Assembly: GCA_028875055.1 (NCBI GenBank)
Contig: JAPPGG010000066.1
Span: 62,001 to 126,000 of the forward strand
Source of the DNA: Chloroflexota bacterium
GTDB lineage: Bacteria; Chloroflexota; Dehalococcoidia; Lucifugimonadales; UBA3495
Reading direction: 5' to 3'
Length of the DNA: 64,000 bases
The position numbers were made by a program, and so were the translations under genes. This document shows positions 29,928 to 40,295 of the stretch, piece by piece. Each line of letters starts with the position of its first letter. The stretch's first letter is position 1. Under the pieces are notes generated by a model. The model was given only the letters and a program-made list of their open reading frames with translations. It had not been told where the DNA came from and ran no database searches.

Positions 29928-29990
29928 GAATATCACAAAACGTTAACTCAAACCGCCGATCCAAATCGTTTGTCAAGAGTGCCGGCAGCT

Positions 29991-32018
29991 ATGACTACAA
30001 CAGAAGCAAATGTCACCACTTATCCGCTGGGCCTGCCGGAAGAGCTCGTTCTGACGCTCCTGAATGAAGAGAACGGGTACTTTCACCAGGTGCCAGGATG
30101 GGACTTGAACTGCGCCATCATTGGCGCCGTGCTGGCCGAACTTTCCCTGCAGTCCCGCATAGACACTGACATGACGTCACTGTTCCTGCTGGACCAGACC
30201 GAGACCGGCAATCCCGCCCTGGACAATACCCTGAAGGAAATAGCGAACGAACCAACCCGGCGAAACGCCCAGTACTGGATAGAGCGGCTCGCTCCCCAGG
30301 CAGAGCATGTAATCGACCTGACGCTTGACAGGTTGGTCGAAATGAGGATTCTCGAGTACCACGACGGGGAGTTTTGGACCATGGCCCGAAACCCCGGCAG
30401 CGCCGACTTGTTTGCCGGCCTTTCCGACGTTTCCGGGTTCCAGTTTGTGAAGACGCGAATCAGCAATGCAATCTTCAACAACGAAATCCCTGACCCCAGG
30501 GACAGCATCATAATATGCCTGGTAAATGCTTGCGATGTATTCCGGTTTATGTTCCAGCTGGACGATGAGGCGGAGGAGCGCATTGCCTTTCTCTGCAACC
30601 TGGACTTGATCGGTCGCTCCATCGCCGCTGCAGTTTCCCAGAACATTGCCGGGGCGCTGTTCAGGCGGTCGGCGCTGGCCAAGAGGATTCCAACAGTGTC
30701 TCTGGGCAGACTTATCCTCAATCCTCACTTGCGGGACGGAAACGTTCCGGCGCTGCTGGCGGACCTGGCGAAGGAGTACGGTCCGGTCTTTCAAATTAGG
30801 CCTCCCTTCTCCAAACCGATGATTTTCATCGCCGGGCCCGACGCCAACCAGTGGGTGCACCGTCGCGGCCGTATGTACCTGAGAACCAAGGACTACTTCA
30901 GCGATTTCGAAAGGGTCTATGGGGCCAGCGGAGTCTTGCCTTCGCTGGACGGCGCAGACCATTTCCGGCTTCGGAAGTCCCTTTCAGCCGCCTATTCCCG
31001 AGGCAGACTGGCGGGCCAACTGGACCAGGTCTATTTCCAGGCCAGGAAGTTTATGTCCGAATGGGAGACAGGGGAGTCCTATCCCGCCAGGAATCTTTGC
31101 CGGCAGATGATCAATGCCCAGCTCTCGCGCCTCTTCGTCAGCGTTGAATCACAGGACATCTTTGACGACTTATCAATATACAAGGAAAGGGCTCTGGTCA
31201 CCCATGTGATAAAGGCGCTTCCCAAATTCATGCTGAAGACACCGGGAATGCGTCGGCGAGCCAAGACCGTGGATGTTCTTCTTGATCGCGTGCAAGGGGT
31301 ACACACCCCTGCCCAGCGGGCGGACAGCCCCAGGGACCTGGCCGACGACATTCTGAGCCTTCATGCCAGCGATCCCCAGTTTGTGCCAGAGTCGAACCTG
31401 CGATTTGCCCTGGCTGCGGCACTGATTGCCAGCGTGTACCTGGGGGACGCATTCAGCTTTACGCTGTACGCCATGGCCTCTCAACCTGAACTATATGAAA
31501 GGATTCAGGCCGAGGCTGACGCCCTGTTTGCGAATGGAGACCCCAGCGGAGACGACCTGAATCCTTCAACCATCGACGTCACACACCGCTTTCTGATGGA
31601 GTGCCTGCGGATGTACCCCATCGTTCCCGTGTCCATCCGCAACGTGATGAACTCCTGCGTGGTTGAGGACTTTGAACTGCCGGTGGGGACACGCTTGTAC
31701 ATTGCCCAGACAGCCTCCCATTTTATGGAGGATGTTTTTCCCGAGCCTACCAAGTTTGACATTGACCGGTACCTGCCACCCCGAAACGAACATCTCAGCC
31801 CCGGATATGCGCCCTACGGACTGGGCACTCATACCTGCCTTGGCTCGAGGTGGATGGAGTTGCAGTTGGCGTTGAACGTTTTGATGGTGGCCCATTACTT
31901 CAACATCAAGGTCTCTCCGAACGATTACAAGCTCAAGTACAGCCCAATACCATCGATGAAACCGAACAAGAAGCTGAAATTCCTGATCGCCGAGAAGAGG
32001 CACGAGCTGAAATTCTGA
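29991..32018 (+). CDS. GPP34 (GOLPH3-like) domain fused to a cytochrome P450
   Basis: A 675-residue protein. Residues about 15-225 match the pattern of the GPP34/GOLPH3 family (LPEELVLTLLNEENG, AIIGAVLAELSLQSRID, GNPALDNTLKEIA, LTLDRLVEMRILEYHDGEFW, PDPRDSIIICLVNACDV), a membrane phosphoinositide-binding fold in eukaryotes. Residues about 230-675 are a P450: MECLRMYP (ExxR) and PYGLGTHTCLGSR with heme-ligand Cys616. The I-helix reads IASVYLGDAFSF where AGxETT is expected, so the acid-alcohol pair used for O2 activation is absent. No transmembrane segment is seen, so GPP34 may dock the enzyme to membrane lipid. Start at 29991 or TTG 29970; neither has a clear ribosome site. Convergent with an RND exporter. 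Confidence 0.85.
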   Translation: MTTTEANVTTYPLGLPEELVLTLLNEENGYFHQVPGWDLNCAIIGAVLAELSLQSRIDTDMTSLFLLDQTETGNPALDNTLKEIANEPTRRNAQYWIERLAPQAEHVIDLTLDRLVEMRILEYHDGEFWTMARNPGSADLFAGLSDVSGFQFVKTRISNAIFNNEIPDPRDSIIICLVNACDVFRFMFQLDDEAEERIAFLCNLDLIGRSIAAAVSQNIAGALFRRSALAKRIPTVSLGRLILNPHLRDGNVPALLADLAKEYGPVFQIRPPFSKPMIFIAGPDANQWVHRRGRMYLRTKDYFSDFERVYGASGVLPSLDGADHFRLRKSLSAAYSRGRLAGQLDQVYFQARKFMSEWETGESYPARNLCRQMINAQLSRLFVSVESQDIFDDLSIYKERALVTHVIKALPKFMLKTPGMRRRAKTVDVLLDRVQGVHTPAQRADSPRDLADDILSLHASDPQFVPESNLRFALAAALIASVYLGDAFSFTLYAMASQPELYERIQAEADALFANGDPSGDDLNPSTIDVTHRFLMECLRMYPIVPVSIRNVMNSCVVEDFELPVGTRLYIAQTASHFMEDVFPEPTKFDIDRYLPPRNEHLSPGYAPYGLGTHTCLGSRWMELQLALNVLMVAHYFNIKVSPNDYKLKYSPIPSMKPNKKLKFLIAEKRHELKF

Positions 32019-32177: not shown

Positions 32178-34658
32178 TCAGGCCCCCTGATTCTCCTCCT
32201 CGTGGCGGGCGTGCACGGCTTCGATATGCATGTCCAGCTCGTCTGACCAGCGCTGAACCATGGAGCGCAGCCGCATGTTCTGATAGGCGCCCCAGAAGGT
32301 CATGGCGGCTGGCACCACGATGATGGAGACCAGCAACGAGTAGGCGATGGTTATCGCCGCGGTGAAGCCAAACTGCTGTGAGGCAGCCAGCGGAGACGCC
32401 ACCAGGACGCCAAGTCCCAACGCCGTAGTAAGCGCTGAGCCCAGCAGGGCTGAGCCTGTCGTACCCAGTGTCCGGACCGCCGCCCGCTCGGGGTCGCGAG
32501 TGTGCGAGTATTCTTCCCGGTAGCGATGGATCATATGGATGGTGTAATCAACACCGATGCCAATGGATAGCGCCGTGATGATTGAAGTTATGATCGTATA
32601 GGGAATGCCCAGCAACGCCATTGTTCCCAACACGGCGATAAGCACCAGGACGATCGGCCCTACCGCGATTACGGCCAGGGCCGGCTGGCGCAGTGTAATC
32701 CAGAAGAAAATTGCCAGAACCGCCAGGGCCGCAATGATGGTAGTGGTAATCGCCTCGGTCTGGCGTTCGGTAATTGCGTCGGTGACGGTGACGGAGATAA
32801 TGCTTCCGGAGGTGGCCGTCAAGTCCTCGTCTCTGCCAAACCACAAACCCTCCAGCTCCTCCTGGAGGACTTTTGTCCTGGAGGGTTCTCCCGAGAAGGT
32901 CGGGAATTGCAGCAGCAATGTATCGACGCCTTCGGGATTGTTGACCACAATCCTCCGGAACTCGGGATCCAGGGCCTCCAGTTTATCCACAAATTGCTGC
33001 ATCAAGACGGGGTCCAGCTGAACCGACGCTGAAGCCTGGTGGAAAAGGGCCTCAAGTTCGGGGGCGTACTTGTCTCCCGGCAGGCCACTATCCTGGGTCC
33101 AGTCGTGCGCCAGCAAGTCAAAGGACGAATGGATGGGACCCGCCGCCGCTTGAGGCCGCTGCCGTTCGTCTTCAAAGGCAGAGGTAAAGTCCTGAAGGTT
33201 CAGGAGCGTCCGGGTTTCGGTGATCTCTGCCTTCAACAGGACTGTGGCCATCTCAGTAGAGCCGCCGACGGCCGCGTCCAGGCTGTCCATATCCCGGAGC
33301 AACTCGCCGTTCCTGGGAAGAATATCGCGAATACTGAATTCGGACTCCAGGCCCGTGGCGGCGTAGCCCAGGCCAGCCGTCAACAAGAGCACTCCACCCA
33401 GATATGGGCCCGGGGCGCGGGTTATGCTCCTCCCCAATAGTTCTGCGAGCTTTCCAATACCGGGCAGCGCATTGGCAATGGGATTGGGAGGCTTCAGTGT
33501 CCCTCGCCTCTCCCTTCTACGATCTATGATGGTTCGTCCGGCGGGGATCAGGGTCAACATCACGACCAGGCTCATGCCAACGCCCAACCCGGCAATTATT
33601 CCGAAATCACCAACAATTTCTATGGGGGAGAACAGGTTGGCCAGCATGCTCACTATTGTCGTGACGGCAGCCAGCACCAGGGGAACGGTTACGTTTCTCA
33701 GTCCCAGGCGAACAGACTGCACCACCGACTCACCGGAGTTACGCTGCTCTCGATAGTGAGAGACAATCTGGATGGCGTAGTCCACCGTGAGACCAATCAC
33801 GATGATGGGCACCATTGTGGTGAGGGAATTGGGCGGCCCAGTCAGGCCCAGCGCTTTGGGCCCCAGCCAGCCCTCGGCTCCGACAATCCAGACTATGGAC
33901 ATCAGCAGGCCGGCCAGGGTAAGCAGCAGATCTGAGATAGTGCGCATGAACAGCAGGATCAGCGCCGCAATCAAGAGGAAGGCCAGCCCCACCAGAGGCG
34001 CCATACCTTCCTCGGTGGCCTTCTTGTATGCGTCCTCAATGATCACCGGGGAAACGGTGCTGACCGTTAACGGGCCCTGGCTGCCACGAACCAGTTGATC
34101 GATATTTCTTTCGACAGTTGCCAGTCGCTCGTCGCCCGTGTCCTGCAGGCGGATTGTGGCGATGGAGACGGGGGTTGTGCCATCCGTATCTATGCCCGTC
34201 AGGGCAGCCAGGGCGCCCATAATTTCGGGAGGGCCCTGGGCTGCGTCGATATCAGCCTGAGTGACACTTTCGAAGCTTCCTGTCTGAAGCAAGACCTTGT
34301 AAAGGTCCGAGGGAGCGACCACCGGATTGACGGGAGCGAGCAGGGCCTGCGCGTCGGGGTCTGAGAGCACTTTGTTGATCAGCGAGTCCATCTGGGCCAG
34401 CCCTTCCGGCGTCAGGGCATTGCCCCGGAACAGCAGGGTTACAACGCTGGCCTCGCCGGACTCGCGGAAACTCTGCTTAATCTCCTGCAATGCCAGTGCG
34501 ACGGCGCTCCCCTGCGGAAGGGTCGCCGCCGTGTCGGGAGGAGGAACCCTTTGGGTGGCGCCAGCGCCCAGAAGCACGGTGATCAGGAGGAGAATTAGAA
34601 TTGTTACGAAGGGCCTTGCCGTAACCAGCCAACTTAGCCAACCTAGAACCTTGTTCAT
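32178..34658 (-). CDS. RND-superfamily exporter (MMPL/HpnN-like)
   Basis: An 826-residue integral membrane protein in two homologous halves. Each half has one TM helix (residues about 15-35 and 418-440), a large extracytoplasmic domain, and a block of five TM helices with sterol-sensing-like spacing (about 220-375 and 640-800). The motif TVDYAIQIVSHYREQ in half one is mirrored by GVDYTIHMIHRYREE in half two, typical of the MMPL/HpnN branch, which exports lipids such as mycolates, hopanoids or carotenoids. No partner membrane-fusion protein is adjacent. AAAGG lies upstream of the ATG. Lipid cargo is an inference, helped by the P450 and Rieske genes on either side. Confidence 0.9.
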   Translation of the reverse strand: MNKVLGWLSWLVTARPFVTILILLLITVLLGAGATQRVPPPDTAATLPQGSAVALALQEIKQSFRESGEASVVTLLFRGNALTPEGLAQMDSLINKVLSDPDAQALLAPVNPVVAPSDLYKVLLQTGSFESVTQADIDAAQGPPEIMGALAALTGIDTDGTTPVSIATIRLQDTGDERLATVERNIDQLVRGSQGPLTVSTVSPVIIEDAYKKATEEGMAPLVGLAFLLIAALILLFMRTISDLLLTLAGLLMSIVWIVGAEGWLGPKALGLTGPPNSLTTMVPIIVIGLTVDYAIQIVSHYREQRNSGESVVQSVRLGLRNVTVPLVLAAVTTIVSMLANLFSPIEIVGDFGIIAGLGVGMSLVVMLTLIPAGRTIIDRRRERRGTLKPPNPIANALPGIGKLAELLGRSITRAPGPYLGGVLLLTAGLGYAATGLESEFSIRDILPRNGELLRDMDSLDAAVGGSTEMATVLLKAEITETRTLLNLQDFTSAFEDERQRPQAAAGPIHSSFDLLAHDWTQDSGLPGDKYAPELEALFHQASASVQLDPVLMQQFVDKLEALDPEFRRIVVNNPEGVDTLLLQFPTFSGEPSRTKVLQEELEGLWFGRDEDLTATSGSIISVTVTDAITERQTEAITTTIIAALAVLAIFFWITLRQPALAVIAVGPIVLVLIAVLGTMALLGIPYTIITSIITALSIGIGVDYTIHMIHRYREEYSHTRDPERAAVRTLGTTGSALLGSALTTALGLGVLVASPLAASQQFGFTAAITIAYSLLVSIIVVPAAMTFWGAYQNMRLRSMVQRWSDELDMHIEAVHARHEEENQGA

Positions 34659-34893: not shown

Positions 34894-35955
34894 CTAAACC
34901 GTGGAGATTTCCTCTGCTGCCGGAGCCTCGTCCACGGCCTCAACCGGGCTGGGATAGAACTGGGCGCAATAGGCCCGGAAAGGCATTATTTCACCATCGG
35001 ACCGGCACAGGCGCGGACGGGACCGGTACTGCTTGCGACGCCAGATAACCACATCCTGCAAGACATCATGCTTTTGCATGGCGGCGACAAACTTGTTGAC
35101 CAGGGGCGCACGCATTCTGACGGGAAGCAACCCCAGGGCGGAAGCTCGCCGACGGGTCTGTCGAATCTCCTCCACCTGCGAAGCCAGCGACATGTCAATG
35201 AGCGTTCCATCCACGGGCGTGGCCATTACCCAGAGCCGCATATTCATCCCAATGGAGTGTTCCCGTATTTCCACATAGGAATAGCCCAGACCGAAAATCC
35301 GGGTACTGGCGGAAATGTCCATAGTAACCGGGATGAATTTGCCCACGGTGCGGCGGGTCTTGAAATCAAAGTCACTTACCAGCAGCGGTCCGTCAACGGA
35401 GACAGAGCCCACCCGCGCCACGCTGTCATAGCCGTGCACGTACCGCAGGTGAGCCAAATCCACTGAATTTTCCGTGGTTTCCTGGGGATGGCCGGGAAAT
35501 CTCAGCGTGTTTATTTCCAGGCCCGTCCACCCGGCCTGGTCGGGCTCTTGACGCGGCAGTTCCCACTGGGGCTCACGTCCCTCAATGCCCCACCAGGCGA
35601 AAATCAGGCCGGCGATGTCACGAGTTTCAAATACCCCCAGCCTGGCATTCCTAGGAGGAACCGCATAGGGAGTAGCGACACACTGCCCCGTGGTATCGTA
35701 CTCGAAGCCGTGGAAAGGACATACCAGCCTGCCGTCGCAAACCCGGCCACCCGTCTCCGGACCCAGGTCGGAACCCAGGTGGGGACAAACAGCCTCGGCC
35801 ACGCAAACATTGCCCTCCTGGTCGCACCAGGCAACGATGCTTTCACCCATCCAGGTCTTTTGGAGGAGGCCGGCTCTTTGGACCGCCTTGCGGCTGGCGA
35901 CGAAATACCAGCCTTCGGGAAAGGGGGAGGGCAGCGGCCGATTTGCACTTCTCAT
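34894..35955 (-). CDS. Rieske [2Fe-2S] non-heme iron oxygenase, alpha subunit
   Basis: A 353-residue oxygenase. The Rieske cluster ligands are C57-P-H59 and C79-x-x-H82; the mononuclear iron site is ENSVDLAHLRYVH with D166, H169 and H174. The compact form without a beta subunit and the ENxxDxxHxxxxH pattern resemble 3-ketosteroid 9-alpha-hydroxylase KshA and the cholesterol desaturase DAF-36/Neverland group, so a sterol-like substrate is plausible. No reductase gene is nearby. ATG at 35955 is preferred (CGGAG upstream); the longer frame to 36015 has no site. Confidence 0.88.
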   Translation of the reverse strand: MRSANRPLPSPFPEGWYFVASRKAVQRAGLLQKTWMGESIVAWCDQEGNVCVAEAVCPHLGSDLGPETGGRVCDGRLVCPFHGFEYDTTGQCVATPYAVPPRNARLGVFETRDIAGLIFAWWGIEGREPQWELPRQEPDQAGWTGLEINTLRFPGHPQETTENSVDLAHLRYVHGYDSVARVGSVSVDGPLLVSDFDFKTRRTVGKFIPVTMDISASTRIFGLGYSYVEIREHSIGMNMRLWVMATPVDGTLIDMSLASQVEEIRQTRRRASALGLLPVRMRAPLVNKFVAAMQKHDVLQDVVIWRRKQYRSRPRLCRSDGEIMPFRAYCAQFYPSPVEAVDEAPAAEEISTV

Positions 35956-36015
35956 AGATTGGGACTCCGGATGGAAGTGACTGGTCAGACAGGAGTATTC
36001 GGTGCAAAGGGGCAC

Positions 36016-36371
36016 CCCAGCGCCAGTAACCCGGCGCCTGGCCAGTTGACAAACCTTGTTTCCACTGTACCACGGACTAAATCAAAATGCCTATGTATAG
36101 CGAGGTTTTCCCAGGGCCATTCGATGATCCCTTCCCCTGTCGAGGGGGAGGGAATGAGCGGTAGCGTCCAATTCAGGTGGTCTCGTGCGCGAGGCCAGGG
36201 CAGCCCCAAGGGCTGCCCCTACGAATGCGGGGACCGAGTTGAGGGGGGAGGGGATAAGCGAAAGACCCGGTGGAACAGTTGGGGAGAGGTTGTCGGGCTG
36301 ACACATGGGATGGTATAACCACCGGAAGTTACACCATGACATCAACCCGAAGTTTCTCCAAAGGCAGGAAT
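36016..36371. other. Intergenic region with repeat R2
   Basis: About 355 bases without a gene; most of it is R2 copy 1 (36126-36256). Confidence 0.55.
36126..36256 (+). repeat. Direct repeat R2, copy 1
   Basis: Shares GATGAGCGGTAGCG-type start, CAATTCAGGTGG, CGTGCGCGAG, CCAGGGCAGCC, AAGGGCTGCCCCTACGAAT and a GGGAC-CG-GAGGGGG end with 40333-40440, same orientation. The core GGGCAGCCCCAAGGGCTGCCC can form a hairpin. The two copies bracket the hydantoinase pair. Confidence 0.8.
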
Positions 36372-38426
36372 ATGGATGACTTTGCCCTGGGAATCGATGT
36401 AGGGGGTACCTTTACCGACATTGTCCTGTTGAATTTGTCCACGGGACACTGCCGTCTGCTCAAGACTCCGTCCACTCCCGACGATCCTTCCCGCGGCTTT
36501 GTTTCCGGCGTTTCCAGCCTGCTGGAAGAGGAGGGGGTGACCTGCTCCCAGGTACAACGCATCTATCACGGCACAACCATAGCCACCAACGCCATACTGG
36601 AGGAGAAGGGCACGGATGTGGGCGTCCTGGTATCGGAGGGGTTCAAGTATGTCCTGGAGATAGGGCGTCACAACATGGCGAGAATGGCCAACCCCCACGT
36701 GTGGGTTAAGCCGGAACGTCCGGTACCGCCGGAGAGAGTGCTGGAGATACCGGAGCGCACCGCATATGACGGAACCGTTGTCAGGGCCCTCGACGAAGAG
36801 GCCGTGATTGGGGCTGCAGCCCATTTCCGCGACGAAGGCATTGCATCGATAGCCATAGCGCTGACCCACTCCTACGCAAACCCGGAGCATGAGCAGCGGG
36901 TTAGAGAGCTGGTGAGTGAGGCGTTCCCCGGGGCCCATCTTTCCTTGTCCTCCGACGTATTGCCCGTGTTCCGTGAGTACGAGAGGACGATAACCACCGT
37001 CCTCAATGCCTATGTGATGCCCCGGGTCAGCTACTACATTGAGAACCTGGACCGAGAATTACGGGGGATGGGGATAAACGCTCCCCTGTTGATTATGAAG
37101 TCCAACGGGGGTGTTATCGGCACGGACACCGCCGCCCGGCAGCCGGTGCATACCGCTCTTTCCGGCCCTGCGGCCGGGGTTATGGCGGCAATTGACGTCG
37201 CCGGCAAGACCGGAGTCCCAGACTGTATTTCCTTTGATATGGGAGGCACCAGTACAGACGTTTCGCTGGTAAGCGGCCGCACCCCAACGACAACCTTGAA
37301 CGCGCAGCTGGGAGCCTGGCCGGTACAGCTGCCCATGCTGGATATCGCCACCATCGGGGCGGGCGGGGGCAGCGTTGCCTGGCTGACTGCCGCTGGCAAT
37401 CTCAGCGTGGGGCCCCGCAGCGCCGGTGCAGCGCCCGGTCCGGTCTGTTACGGCACGGGCGGGACCGAGCCAACGGTGACCGACGCCAACCTGGCGCTGG
37501 GACGCATTGACAAGAAGATCGCGGGCGGGACCCTGACGCTGGACTCCGAAGCAGCGCGGGAGTCCATCCGGAACAGGATTGCCGCTCCCCTGGGGCTGGA
37601 CGTGAACCACGCCGCCCAGGGCATTCTCCAGATAGTCAACAACAACATGGTGGGGGCCATACGAAACGTCAGCGTGGAGCGGGGGTACGATCCCAGGGAC
37701 TTTGCCCTGGTGGCCTTCGGCGGCGCGGGACCGATGCACGCCGTCGCCGTGGCGCGCCTGCTGGGAATGACCACGGTCATCGCTCCACCCAATCCGGGAG
37801 TCGCCTCGGCGTACGGGTTGCTGGTGTCCGACTTCAAGAATGACTACGCCAGGACTTCCATTCAGAAGCCACCGGACTACGACATTGGGGGGATGCAGAG
37901 CATCTACGAGGACCTGGGAGCGGAAGCAACCAACTGGCTGGATTCGGAAGCGGTACCGACGGACCGGCAGGAGCTGACCAGGTCTGCCGACCTGCGATAC
38001 GCCCACCAGGGATTCGAGGTTACCGTAGAACTGGCCGGAAGCAGGGTGGACGGGGACTCGCTGGACGCCACCATCCAACGCTTTCACCAGGAACACCACC
38101 GGCTGTTCGGGTTTTCCCTGGACCAGCCGGTGGAGCTTGTTACGCTGCGGGTTACTGCCAGGGGTCACCTGGAGTCCGCCGGCAGGGCCGCCCACTCCCC
38201 CGACCTGACGGGACATCCGGATGCCCTGCAGGGACAGCGCCAGGTCTTCTTTGATGAGGCAGGCGGGTTCGTGGCCTGCAACATCTACCTGCGAGACCTG
38301 CTGGCTCCAGGCTCCGCTATAGAGGGCCCAGCTATCCTGGAGAACTCTGATTCTACCGTAGTAATTGAACCGGGCTGGAGGGCACGGATTGACGAGTTCG
38401 GCAACTGCATCATGCGGCCGGTCTAG
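36372..38426 (+). CDS. Hydantoinase/oxoprolinase A-type subunit
   Basis: A 684-residue ATP-dependent amidohydrolase or carboxylase subunit of the HyuA/acetone-carboxylase-beta family. The ASKHA-type ATP site is GIDVGGTFTDIVLL near the N-terminus and FDMGGTSTDVSL in the middle; YHGTTIATNAILE and GAGPMHAVAVARLLG are family hallmarks. ATG at 36372 places GIDVGG at residue 7, as is usual; ATG at 36336 with GGAAG upstream is an alternative. Forms an operon with the B subunit, 18 nt downstream. It could act on N-methylhydantoin, 5-oxoproline or a ketone; this cannot be told. Confidence 0.93.
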   Translation: MDDFALGIDVGGTFTDIVLLNLSTGHCRLLKTPSTPDDPSRGFVSGVSSLLEEEGVTCSQVQRIYHGTTIATNAILEEKGTDVGVLVSEGFKYVLEIGRHNMARMANPHVWVKPERPVPPERVLEIPERTAYDGTVVRALDEEAVIGAAAHFRDEGIASIAIALTHSYANPEHEQRVRELVSEAFPGAHLSLSSDVLPVFREYERTITTVLNAYVMPRVSYYIENLDRELRGMGINAPLLIMKSNGGVIGTDTAARQPVHTALSGPAAGVMAAIDVAGKTGVPDCISFDMGGTSTDVSLVSGRTPTTTLNAQLGAWPVQLPMLDIATIGAGGGSVAWLTAAGNLSVGPRSAGAAPGPVCYGTGGTEPTVTDANLALGRIDKKIAGGTLTLDSEAARESIRNRIAAPLGLDVNHAAQGILQIVNNNMVGAIRNVSVERGYDPRDFALVAFGGAGPMHAVAVARLLGMTTVIAPPNPGVASAYGLLVSDFKNDYARTSIQKPPDYDIGGMQSIYEDLGAEATNWLDSEAVPTDRQELTRSADLRYAHQGFEVTVELAGSRVDGDSLDATIQRFHQEHHRLFGFSLDQPVELVTLRVTARGHLESAGRAAHSPDLTGHPDALQGQRQVFFDEAGGFVACNIYLRDLLAPGSAIEGPAILENSDSTVVIEPGWRARIDEFGNCIMRPV

Positions 38427-38444
38427 CGCAGGAGGGAGGACAGG

Positions 38445-40295
38445 ATGACGACCAACCCGGGGATGAAGAGGGACGGAGGCAAGCCGGCAGGGGTTGACCC
38501 GATTACCCTGCAGCTGGTGCGCGGGTCGCTGCGTTCGGCCCGGCTGGAGTGCGAGCTGATCATCGAAAGGACGGCCATGTCAGCCTTCATTCGGGAGAAG
38601 AAGGACTATACGGTGAGCTTCCTGGACAGCCTTGGCCAGGAAATCTACGGGGAGACCCTGGGCAGCGACATTATGGGGTGTGTATGGAGCCACTACCCGC
38701 CCGAGTCCATGCATGCGGGAGACGTGTACTGGTACAACGACCCGTACATATCTGGAGGCAGTATCAGCCATACGCCGGACATGGTGTTCATTACTCCCGT
38801 CTTCTTTGAGGGCGAACTGGTGGCCTACTGCCACTCCTTTGCCCATTTCTGGGACCTGGGCGGGTCGAGACCGGGGAGTATTGGGCCGGCCAACACGGAG
38901 ATCTTCCATGACGGGACGCTGGTGCCGCCCATCAGGATTGTGGACCAGGGCAAGCTGAACGATGAGGCCTACCGGATCATCCTGCGCAACTCCCGCTATC
39001 CGGACCTGCTTGAAGGGGACTCCAGAGCCCTGATGGCCGCGGCGCAGCGGGCGGAAGAGCGGATGCTGGAGATCTTCGGGCGGTTCGGCAAGGAGACCAC
39101 ACTGGCCGCCATTCGCCAGGACCAGCAGGAGACCGCCGAGTTCATCCGGCGGAAGACCCGGGAGATGATTCCGGAGGGGACATACTCCACGCGGGACTAC
39201 CTGGACAATGACGGAGTGGGCGATGAGTGGCACTCCTTCCGGCTGGAGCTGAGCCGGACCGGCGACGACATTGTCCTGGACGCGACGGGCAGCGACGACC
39301 AGACGCCCGGGTCTATCAACTTCATTGCCAGCAACGGCACGCTGGGGGCGTACTTCGGGCAACACTTCCACCAGTACGATTCATCGCTGACTATGAACCA
39401 GGGCCTGATGGCCGCCGTTGACGATGTAAAGCTGCGACCGGGGAGCATTCTGCAGCCCCAGTGGCCGGCAGCGCTGGGGTGTCGCGCCCACACGTTCACC
39501 AAGCTGAAGAACGCGGTTCGGGCAGTGGTGGCCAGAGCCAACGGAGGCGATGCCATGGCGGCGATGGCGGTGTACGTCATTGCCTACTGGCGCATGAGGG
39601 ACGCCGAGAGCGGCGAGTGGCTGCTGTGCACCGACGGCATAGCAGTGGGGCACGGCGGGCGCCCGCAGGCCGATGGCATTGACGCCGTTTACAGCCGTCA
39701 CAACGAGAACTACCCGGCGGAGTTCATGGACATGGAGTACCCGCTGCGGATGGAGCGGTACGCCATCAACCCCGACTCAGGGGGGCCCGGCAAGTACCGG
39801 GGCGGCTGCGGCATCATACGGGACGTGCGGCTGCTCGCCCCGGAGGGGACCTTCGGGCTGCGGGTGGAGAACCACCGCTTTCCGGCCTGGGGACTGGCCG
39901 GCGGGAAGGCCGGGGGCACATCCCGGGTGATACTGAACCCGGGGCAATCGGATGAGCGGGACATCCGACCCTTCTCCGACGACAACCGCTGGGTGGCGGG
40001 CGACCTGGTCCGGCTGTTAACCGCCGGAGGCGGGGGCTGGGGCGACCCGCTGGAACGGGAGGTCAGCCTCGTGGAGAAGGATGTCCGGGGCGGGTTTGTG
40101 ACGCTGGAGGCGGCCCGTTCGGAGTATGGCGTGGTGATTGACCCGGCCTCGCTGAAGGCGGACGCCCCAGGGACGCGGGCCTTCAGGGAAGACTTGCGGA
40201 GGACCCGGGAGCAGCCGAAGATGTTTCACCGCTTCATCTACTTCGACGATGATGAAGCGGAGCGGCAGTGGATTGAAACCCATATGCCCCGATAG
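38445..40295 (+). CDS. Hydantoinase/oxoprolinase B-type subunit
   Basis: A 616-residue partner of the A subunit. Typical segments: DPITLQLVRGSLRSARLECELIIERTA in part, GDVYWYNDPYISGGSISHTPDM with the family's metal-binding Asp and His, FAHFWDLGGSRPGS, and the C-terminal GGPGKYRGGCG and TAGGGGWGDPLERE. AGGAGGGAGGACAGG lies just before the ATG. The A-B gene pair is bounded by R2 direct repeats. Confidence 0.93.
   Translation: MTTNPGMKRDGGKPAGVDPITLQLVRGSLRSARLECELIIERTAMSAFIREKKDYTVSFLDSLGQEIYGETLGSDIMGCVWSHYPPESMHAGDVYWYNDPYISGGSISHTPDMVFITPVFFEGELVAYCHSFAHFWDLGGSRPGSIGPANTEIFHDGTLVPPIRIVDQGKLNDEAYRIILRNSRYPDLLEGDSRALMAAAQRAEERMLEIFGRFGKETTLAAIRQDQQETAEFIRRKTREMIPEGTYSTRDYLDNDGVGDEWHSFRLELSRTGDDIVLDATGSDDQTPGSINFIASNGTLGAYFGQHFHQYDSSLTMNQGLMAAVDDVKLRPGSILQPQWPAALGCRAHTFTKLKNAVRAVVARANGGDAMAAMAVYVIAYWRMRDAESGEWLLCTDGIAVGHGGRPQADGIDAVYSRHNENYPAEFMDMEYPLRMERYAINPDSGGPGKYRGGCGIIRDVRLLAPEGTFGLRVENHRFPAWGLAGGKAGGTSRVILNPGQSDERDIRPFSDDNRWVAGDLVRLLTAGGGGWGDPLEREVSLVEKDVRGGFVTLEAARSEYGVVIDPASLKADAPGTRAFREDLRRTREQPKMFHRFIYFDDDEAERQWIETHMPR

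Follow-up and report, generated by a model that had tools for sequence, protein, structure and literature searches.

The canonical I-helix motif of cytochrome P450s, (A/G)Gx(D/E)T, holds an acid–alcohol pair from which several well-described enzymes depart. CYP51, in which His-Thr replaces the acid-Thr, works with O2, and CYP7A1 and CYP8B1 are steroid hydroxylases that lack the acid–alcohol pair. The CYP152 peroxygenases are likewise without an acid-Thr pair and carry Arg-Pro in its place, and the CYP74 enzymes (allene oxide synthase and hydroperoxide lyase) have extra heme-loop residues together with an Asn-containing I-helix motif. According to the accessible text of PMC10741444, CYP107A1 (P450eryF) has Ala in place of the Thr and still hydroxylates, using a proton from a hydroxyl group of its substrate; in engineered P450s, disruption of the pair can favor Cpd 0/peroxide chemistry and epoxidation (PMC9112060, in the text available). 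In sponge metagenomes, functional bacterial sterol methyltransferases (SMTs) occur in clusters with sdmA/sdmB, as the accessible part of PMC10070321 describes, and that of PMC9531527 reports ERG24-CYP51-LSS clusters across 10 phyla, in 115 of the 537 MAGs it covers. The words P450, CYP and Rieske are absent from the main text of the former, and GPP34 and Rieske from that of the latter.

We describe here a gene that joins a P450 to an amino-terminal GPP34 domain, encoded in a 64,000-nucleotide stretch of contig JAPPGG010000066.1 from a Chloroflexota bacterium, which we refer to as the window (Table 1). The open reading frame extends from a TTG at 29970 (682 aa); we use the ATG at 29991 as the start, given that the alignment with relatives begins near residue 1 of this form. 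Two Pfam domains lie in the one frame, GPP34 with an E value of 6e-25 and p450 with an E value of 1e-33. The GPP34 assignment (PF05719) scores 88.8 bits, where 29.1 is the cut-off, and covers positions 1–198 of the 201 in the profile; the match of the domain to solved GOLPH3 is weak (pairwise E 0.29). It is possible that this domain serves as a membrane-docking module. The carboxy-terminal portion belongs to the P450 superfamily, with the ExxR motif, the heme-Cys loop and the P450 fold all present. The GC content of the gene is 56.2%, compared with 60.7% for the window. In a literature search that took in few subscription papers or preprints and no supplements, we found no paper that pairs GPP34 with a bacterial P450, and thus no published description of such a fusion; the titles and abstracts returned for GPP34 and P450 concern insects, and those for GPP34 and sponge look unrelated.

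Table 1. Positions in the window of the fusion gene, its parts and its two adjoining genes; locus counts refer to the best 80 of 133 related loci.
Feature	Position	Strand	Remarks
GPP34-cytochrome P450 fusion	29991..32018	+	675 aa from likely ATG
GPP34 (GOLPH3/VPS74-type) domain	30033..30635	+	Pfam; residues 22-222 of 682-aa ORF
Cytochrome P450 domain	30735..31976	+	Pfam; residues 256-669 of 682-aa ORF
I-helix kink A480-S-V-Y483-L484-G485-D486	31428..31448	+	Alignment; Tyr, Gly, Asp invariant
ExxR motif E537-C-L-R540 (K helix)	31599..31610	+	
Heme loop YGLGTHTCLG, Cys616 thiolate ligand	31815..31844	+	
MMPL/RND-type transporter, sterol-sensing/Patched similarity	32178..34658	-	MMPL in 27/80 loci
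KshA-type Rieske oxygenase	34894..36015	-	Neighbor in 62/80 loci

The preliminary description of this DNA had held that the acid–alcohol pair is missing from the I helix, with IASVYL in the place of AGxETT. The loss of the pair is borne out: no Asp/Glu-Thr stands at the kink in any register that we tried, and no alignment recovers a Glu/Asp-Thr pair in a register other than the one proposed. The placement itself is probably off by one. A gapless count from the conserved helix does set IASVYL (residues 479–484, nt 31425–31442, inside the 31410–31480 interval first given for it) opposite AGxETT, but the two best-supported alignments shift the register by one residue, to ASVYLGD. One of these is a MAFFT alignment with relatives of the same architecture (AGADTS in L096–L098, AGHYTGS in the L067 paralogue), and the other matches a 64-row family profile to Methylococcus CYP51 (AGHHTS); both pair A480 with Ala, S481 with Gly, Y483 with the acid and L484 with Thr, and both show a one-residue deletion downstream of these. 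When the single sequence is aligned to 7wzl, the gap moves to an earlier position, so that V falls opposite the acid and Y opposite the Thr. The exact position of the gap varies with the alignment, and judged from these sequence comparisons the pair is absent either way, the canonical motif being replaced by Tyr or Val at the acid position and by Leu/Val or Tyr at the Thr position.

The same replacement extends through the family. In an alignment of the window protein with the best 80 of 133 relatives, the kink is occupied in 80 of the 81 rows (L061, which has an internal stop, is gapped there), and its seven positions read A79/T1, S80, V66/M7/A6/Y1, Y80, L69/V9/I1/M1, G80 and D80, so that the alcohol position is aliphatic in every row with data. 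The three other P450s of the window genome read AGTDTS, AGNETT and AGHETT; since all of these keep the pair, its absence is specific to the GPP34-P450 gene. Between the window gene and its relative in L005, the differences at codon positions 1, 2 and 3 are 0.087, 0.034 and 0.367, and for L006 they are 0.179, 0.113 and 0.557. Low values at position 2 and high values at position 3 indicate purifying selection on the gene, and because it also keeps its ExxR motif and heme Cys, decay or a frameshift can be ruled out as the origin of the altered motif. The same observations bear on whether the P450 domain might be catalytically dead and serve as a sterol-binding or scaffolding partner. Such a role would agree with the disappearance of the acid as well as the alcohol from the active site; conservation of the heme Cys, ExxR motif and heme loop through the family, under strong purifying selection, makes it very improbable.

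Three states of the I helix occur within this one family of fusions. L096, L097 and L098 (the last with one stop), which are 33–34% identical to the window protein, have AGADTSS; the L067 paralogue, at 40–41% identity, has AGHYT-GS; and the main clade has AS[VMA]Y[LV]-GD. Because relatives at about 34% identity keep AGADTS and another has AGHYTGS, the pair was lost inside the GPP34-P450 family, and the L067 paralogue has the appearance, in its sequence, of an intermediate state. This second gene (L067:9450-11432, - strand) lies a few kilobases from the main copy. The new Asp of the main clade falls three residues past the Tyr, about one helical turn, and it is possible from this spacing that the two form a rebuilt proton relay. 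L096 and L097 share the two-domain architecture (L096 was scanned) and differ from the main clade in keeping both the Asp-Thr pair and a full-length kink. In the stretches covered around these two genes we found no relative of the Rieske, FAD or SMT-type genes discussed below. The canonical L096 lies outside the sterol-type genes, indicating that the two-domain architecture by itself implies no link to sterols.

We predicted the structure of the window protein with AlphaFold2 from 64 of 82 available rows, yielding a model with a pLDDT of 82.1 and a pTM of 0.78 in which the I helix spans residues 467–497. The top row in VIA-align 2 is CYP46A1 (Z 34.6, rmsd 2.9, 404 aligned residues), followed by Methylococcus CYP51 (33.9), CYP170A1 (33.8), human CYP51 (33.6) and CYP120A1 (33.1); rows less than 1 Z apart count as tied, and the top rows lie within about 1.5 Z. 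Foldseek instead orders CYP184A1 first, then BM3 and CYP51. The best PDB match of the 64-row profile is Methylococcus CYP51, with an E value of 2e-31. The best matches by sequence and by fold are mostly sterol and terpenoid P450s, and even the closest are distant, at 15–20% identity. The modeled resemblance is one of common fold and does not show function.

Set beside individual enzymes, the GPP34-P450 most nearly recalls CYP51 of the Methylococcus type, which is its best profile match, has a His in the heme loop and also has a nonacidic residue at the acid position, His in CYP51 and Tyr here. The two differ in that CYP51 retains the Thr where the GPP34-P450 has Leu/Val, and in that the latter has one kink residue deleted and an N-terminal GPP34 domain; their identity is 17–19%. 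A simple CYP51 is ruled out, as the AGHHTS-type motif is replaced by ASVYLGD. CYP46A1, the cholesterol 24-hydroxylase, is the best VIA-align match but only about 17% identical. As another P450 without the Thr (PMC10741444, in the part available), CYP107A1 offers a parallel; it differs in having Ala at this position and in being a macrolide hydroxylase. The main clade also lacks the marks of CYP152 and CYP74. None of the rows inspected has an Arg at any of the seven positions of the kink, and hence none has a counterpart of Arg-Pro; the heme loop, YGLGTHTCLG, is of ordinary length and the kink motif contains no Asn. In CYP152 it is this Arg that binds the fatty acid, as the accessible text of PMC9112060 states.

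These comparisons bear on the proposal in the preliminary description that the missing pair points to an unusual O2 or proton step, with isomerase, dehydratase or peroxygenase chemistry as the outcome. The first half is a fair inference, the loss of the pair being fixed in the clade; the second is one possibility among others, as the counterexamples of CYP107A1 and CYP51 illustrate. As an alternative in its own right, the enzyme could act on a sterol or oxidized sterol as an isomerase, a dehydratase or an H2O2-driven peroxygenase and not as an O2 monooxygenase. The pair is absent from all 80 rows with data, loss of the Thr favors Cpd 0/peroxide chemistry in the available text of PMC9112060, and we recognized no redox partner among the 16 neighbor clusters inspected. 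The kink lacks Arg-Pro, however, and the invariance of its Tyr and Asp suggests that these two take over the relay. CYP74 and CYP152 are not among the sequence, Foldseek or VIA-align matches listed, which excludes neither family. The last of the favorable points is further weakened in that bacterial P450s often lack clustered redox partners. On balance we consider this alternative unlikely, and the description of a new GPP34-P450 clade in a sterol-type module fits the protein better than that of an enzyme of the allene oxide synthase or peroxygenase type.

The evidence for such a module comes from the neighboring genes. Our search of genome contigs found 133 related loci, of which we kept the best 80, with 60–91% identity and from ten phyla, and surveyed up to 6 kb of flank on either side, some flanks being shorter. 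Among these best 80 of 133 loci, a KshA-like Rieske oxygenase adjoins the gene in 62, an SMT-type gene in 45 and an FAD oxidoreductase in 44; MMPL transporters occur in 27 (three of them at only 21–24% identity), AcrB-type RND transporters in 22 and ERG4/ERG24-type reductases in eight (one at 30%). At least one of the Rieske, FAD and SMT-type genes is present in 74 of the 80, in varying order and orientation. The remaining six have only a transporter (L035, L038, L043, L052 and L060) or none of these neighbors (L075), and in a few loci the SMT present is solely of a second, more distant type (41–47%). Those SMT-type proteins that we scanned contain Sterol_MT_C (PF08498) at 54–80 bits and also match the CMAS family, with no NCBIfam naming match above cut-off. 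The closest match to the FAD protein is LkcE, followed by 2b9w_A, a fatty-acid isomerase. In six Chloroflexota loci (L011, L019, L022, L024, L025 and L033), a tandem pair of ERG4/ERG24-type reductase genes lies at the 5′ end, upstream of the module.

An oxidosqualene cyclase gene lies beside the fusion in four of the 80 loci (L017, L030, L062 from Nitrospirota, and L074), scoring 397–730 bits with TIGR03463, below the curated cut-off of 851 and well above the hopene-cyclase model. We observed that the cyclase of L030 forms part of a 1135-aa ORF (L030:4523-7927, - strand) that, from domain scans, combines a squalene-epoxidase-like FAD domain with the oxidosqualene cyclase. A similar 1136-aa epoxidase-cyclase ORF is present in L062 (L062:10439-13849, - strand), as judged from its like translation and a cyclase scan. 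Both come from Nitrospirota MAGs and lie next to the genes for the GPP34-P450 and the FAD protein, and matches from a literature search on squalene epoxidase-cyclase fusions look unrelated.

These loci resemble the sponge-symbiont sterol clusters of PMC10070321 and PMC9531527, the two relevant papers that a literature search on sponge sterols brought up, as described in their accessible text, in carrying SMT, ERG24-type and oxidosqualene cyclase genes across several phyla. The joint presence of ERG24, CYP51 and lanosterol synthase that marks the PMC9531527 type is not seen here, with a cyclase at 4/80 and an ERG4/ERG24-type gene at 8/80 loci; the CYP51 of that work, an annotated cluster gene in the text available, is set beside the GPP34-P450 by description only. 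The gene sdmA is of the Rieske type. Together, the GPP34 fusion and the sterol-type neighborhood say more about function than the I helix does.

In the window itself, only the MMPL and Rieske genes adjoin the fusion. Farther along, the interval 36270-40295 (+ strand) holds a gene for hydantoinase A, similar to caprolactamase alpha (582 bits, short of the cut-off), and after it an ORF of 616 aa that is perhaps the B subunit. The SMT-type genes of this genome are on other contigs, one on C17 (73% to the L037 protein) and one on C21 (42%), and an ERG4/ERG24-type reductase gene is on C11. The C21 gene (L090:1420-2523) is a second SMT-type gene, 42% identical and with Sterol_MT_C, and stands beside two ORFs, one for a presumed luciferase-like monooxygenase and one transporter-like. 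We found no relative of the FAD protein in the window genome, in a search run without a positive control, and no oxidosqualene cyclase, the only SQHop matches tracing to one squalene-hopene cyclase (TIGR01507, 764 bits). This cyclase lies on C62 (L085:3623-11155) with hopanoid-type neighbors, which we take to be HpnA/HpnG/HpnH-like genes, and a separate canonical P450 (AGTDTS). The published ERG24-CYP51-LSS cluster is ruled out for this genome, as its cyclase is a hopene cyclase. With only this cyclase found, the substrate there would be a host sterol, if the enzyme acts on sterols.

The module might instead act on a non-sterol membrane lipid, such as a methyl-branched or cyclopropane lipid, a hopanoid or a carotenoid, its resemblance to sterol genes reflecting distant homology. 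The matches of the SMT-type protein to CMAS and of the FAD protein to LkcE and then 2b9w_A are consistent with this, as is a window genome that has a hopanoid-type cluster and in which we found no oxidosqualene cyclase. Against it stand Sterol_MT_C at 54–80 bits, the KshA-type Rieske protein, the ERG4/ERG24-type reductases and the oxidosqualene cyclases in four loci, and we regard a non-sterol substrate as quite unlikely.

We found the GPP34-P450 gene or its paralogue in 27 of 400 Chloroflexota genomes, from 8 of 225 genera. SMT (E ≤ 1e-60) was present in 25 of these 400 genomes and the P450 (E ≤ 1e-100) in 27, with both in 22 compared with 1.7 by chance, a count in which close relatives enter without being independent. 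The P450 occurs without SMT in G319, G077, G117, G252 (canonical paralogue only) and G308, and SMT without the P450 in G010, G101 and G181. A quick maximum-likelihood tree of 80 rows, with L061 and L078 left out and the L067 paralogue as outgroup, shows 16 changes among the ten phylum labels on 72 rows, where the minimum is 9; these labels are taken from the titles that submitters gave, and contamination of bins is possible. This excess supports, without proving, horizontal transfer of the gene across phyla as read from the sequence tree. The 80 isolate names include the prefixes RHO (18), SB06xx (15), jk18x (12), COS (4), APA (2) and IRC (1), among others. Partly by inference, we take these prefixes and other types of name to denote sponge-derived samples, and the carriers appear, from record names and not metadata, to be marine-sponge symbionts. 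Some of the prefixes fit sponge species sampled in PMC8163846, as listed in its accessible part.

Taken together, we favor the reading, with a probability of roughly 0.57, that the GPP34-P450 is a sterol-tailoring (or related triterpenoid-tailoring) enzyme in a horizontally spread symbiont module and works with an altered (Tyr/Asp) or substrate-assisted relay. GPP34 would dock the enzyme on the membrane, so that a sterol could pass from the bilayer into the P450 pocket, and O2 or peroxide would bind at the heme. Least certain in this scheme are the steps by which Tyr483/Asp486 or a substrate hydroxyl might supply protons in place of the acid-Thr relay, and by which a changed balance of Cpd 0 and Cpd I might suit the enzyme to a single kind of sterol oxidation. 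The carriers from Nitrospirota could synthesize sterol themselves. To our knowledge, CYP107A1, with its substrate-derived proton, has no GPP34 fusion. A bolder version, which we advance only tentatively and think somewhat unlikely, is that the GPP34-docked clade has a rebuilt Tyr/Asp relay, performs a new sterol oxidation and belongs to a mobile, multi-phylum module that alters sponge sterols, possibly including side chains that serve as biomarkers of animals.

The fusion of GPP34 to a P450 suggests a means, besides a transmembrane anchor, by which a bacterial P450 could reach its lipid substrate, and the series from Asp-Thr through Tyr-Thr to Tyr-Leu plus a new Asp should be useful for understanding how P450s handle protons without the canonical pair. 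Whether unusual sponge sterols are of sponge or bacterial origin matters for the record of early animals based on 24-isopropylcholestane, as the accessible text of PMC10070321 sets out. A P450 family that adjoins SMT-type genes, at 60–91% identity and in ten phyla, provides concrete enzymes with which to test the origin of these sterols. The GPP34-P450s may thereby help to settle which partner, the sponge or its bacteria, produces certain of them.
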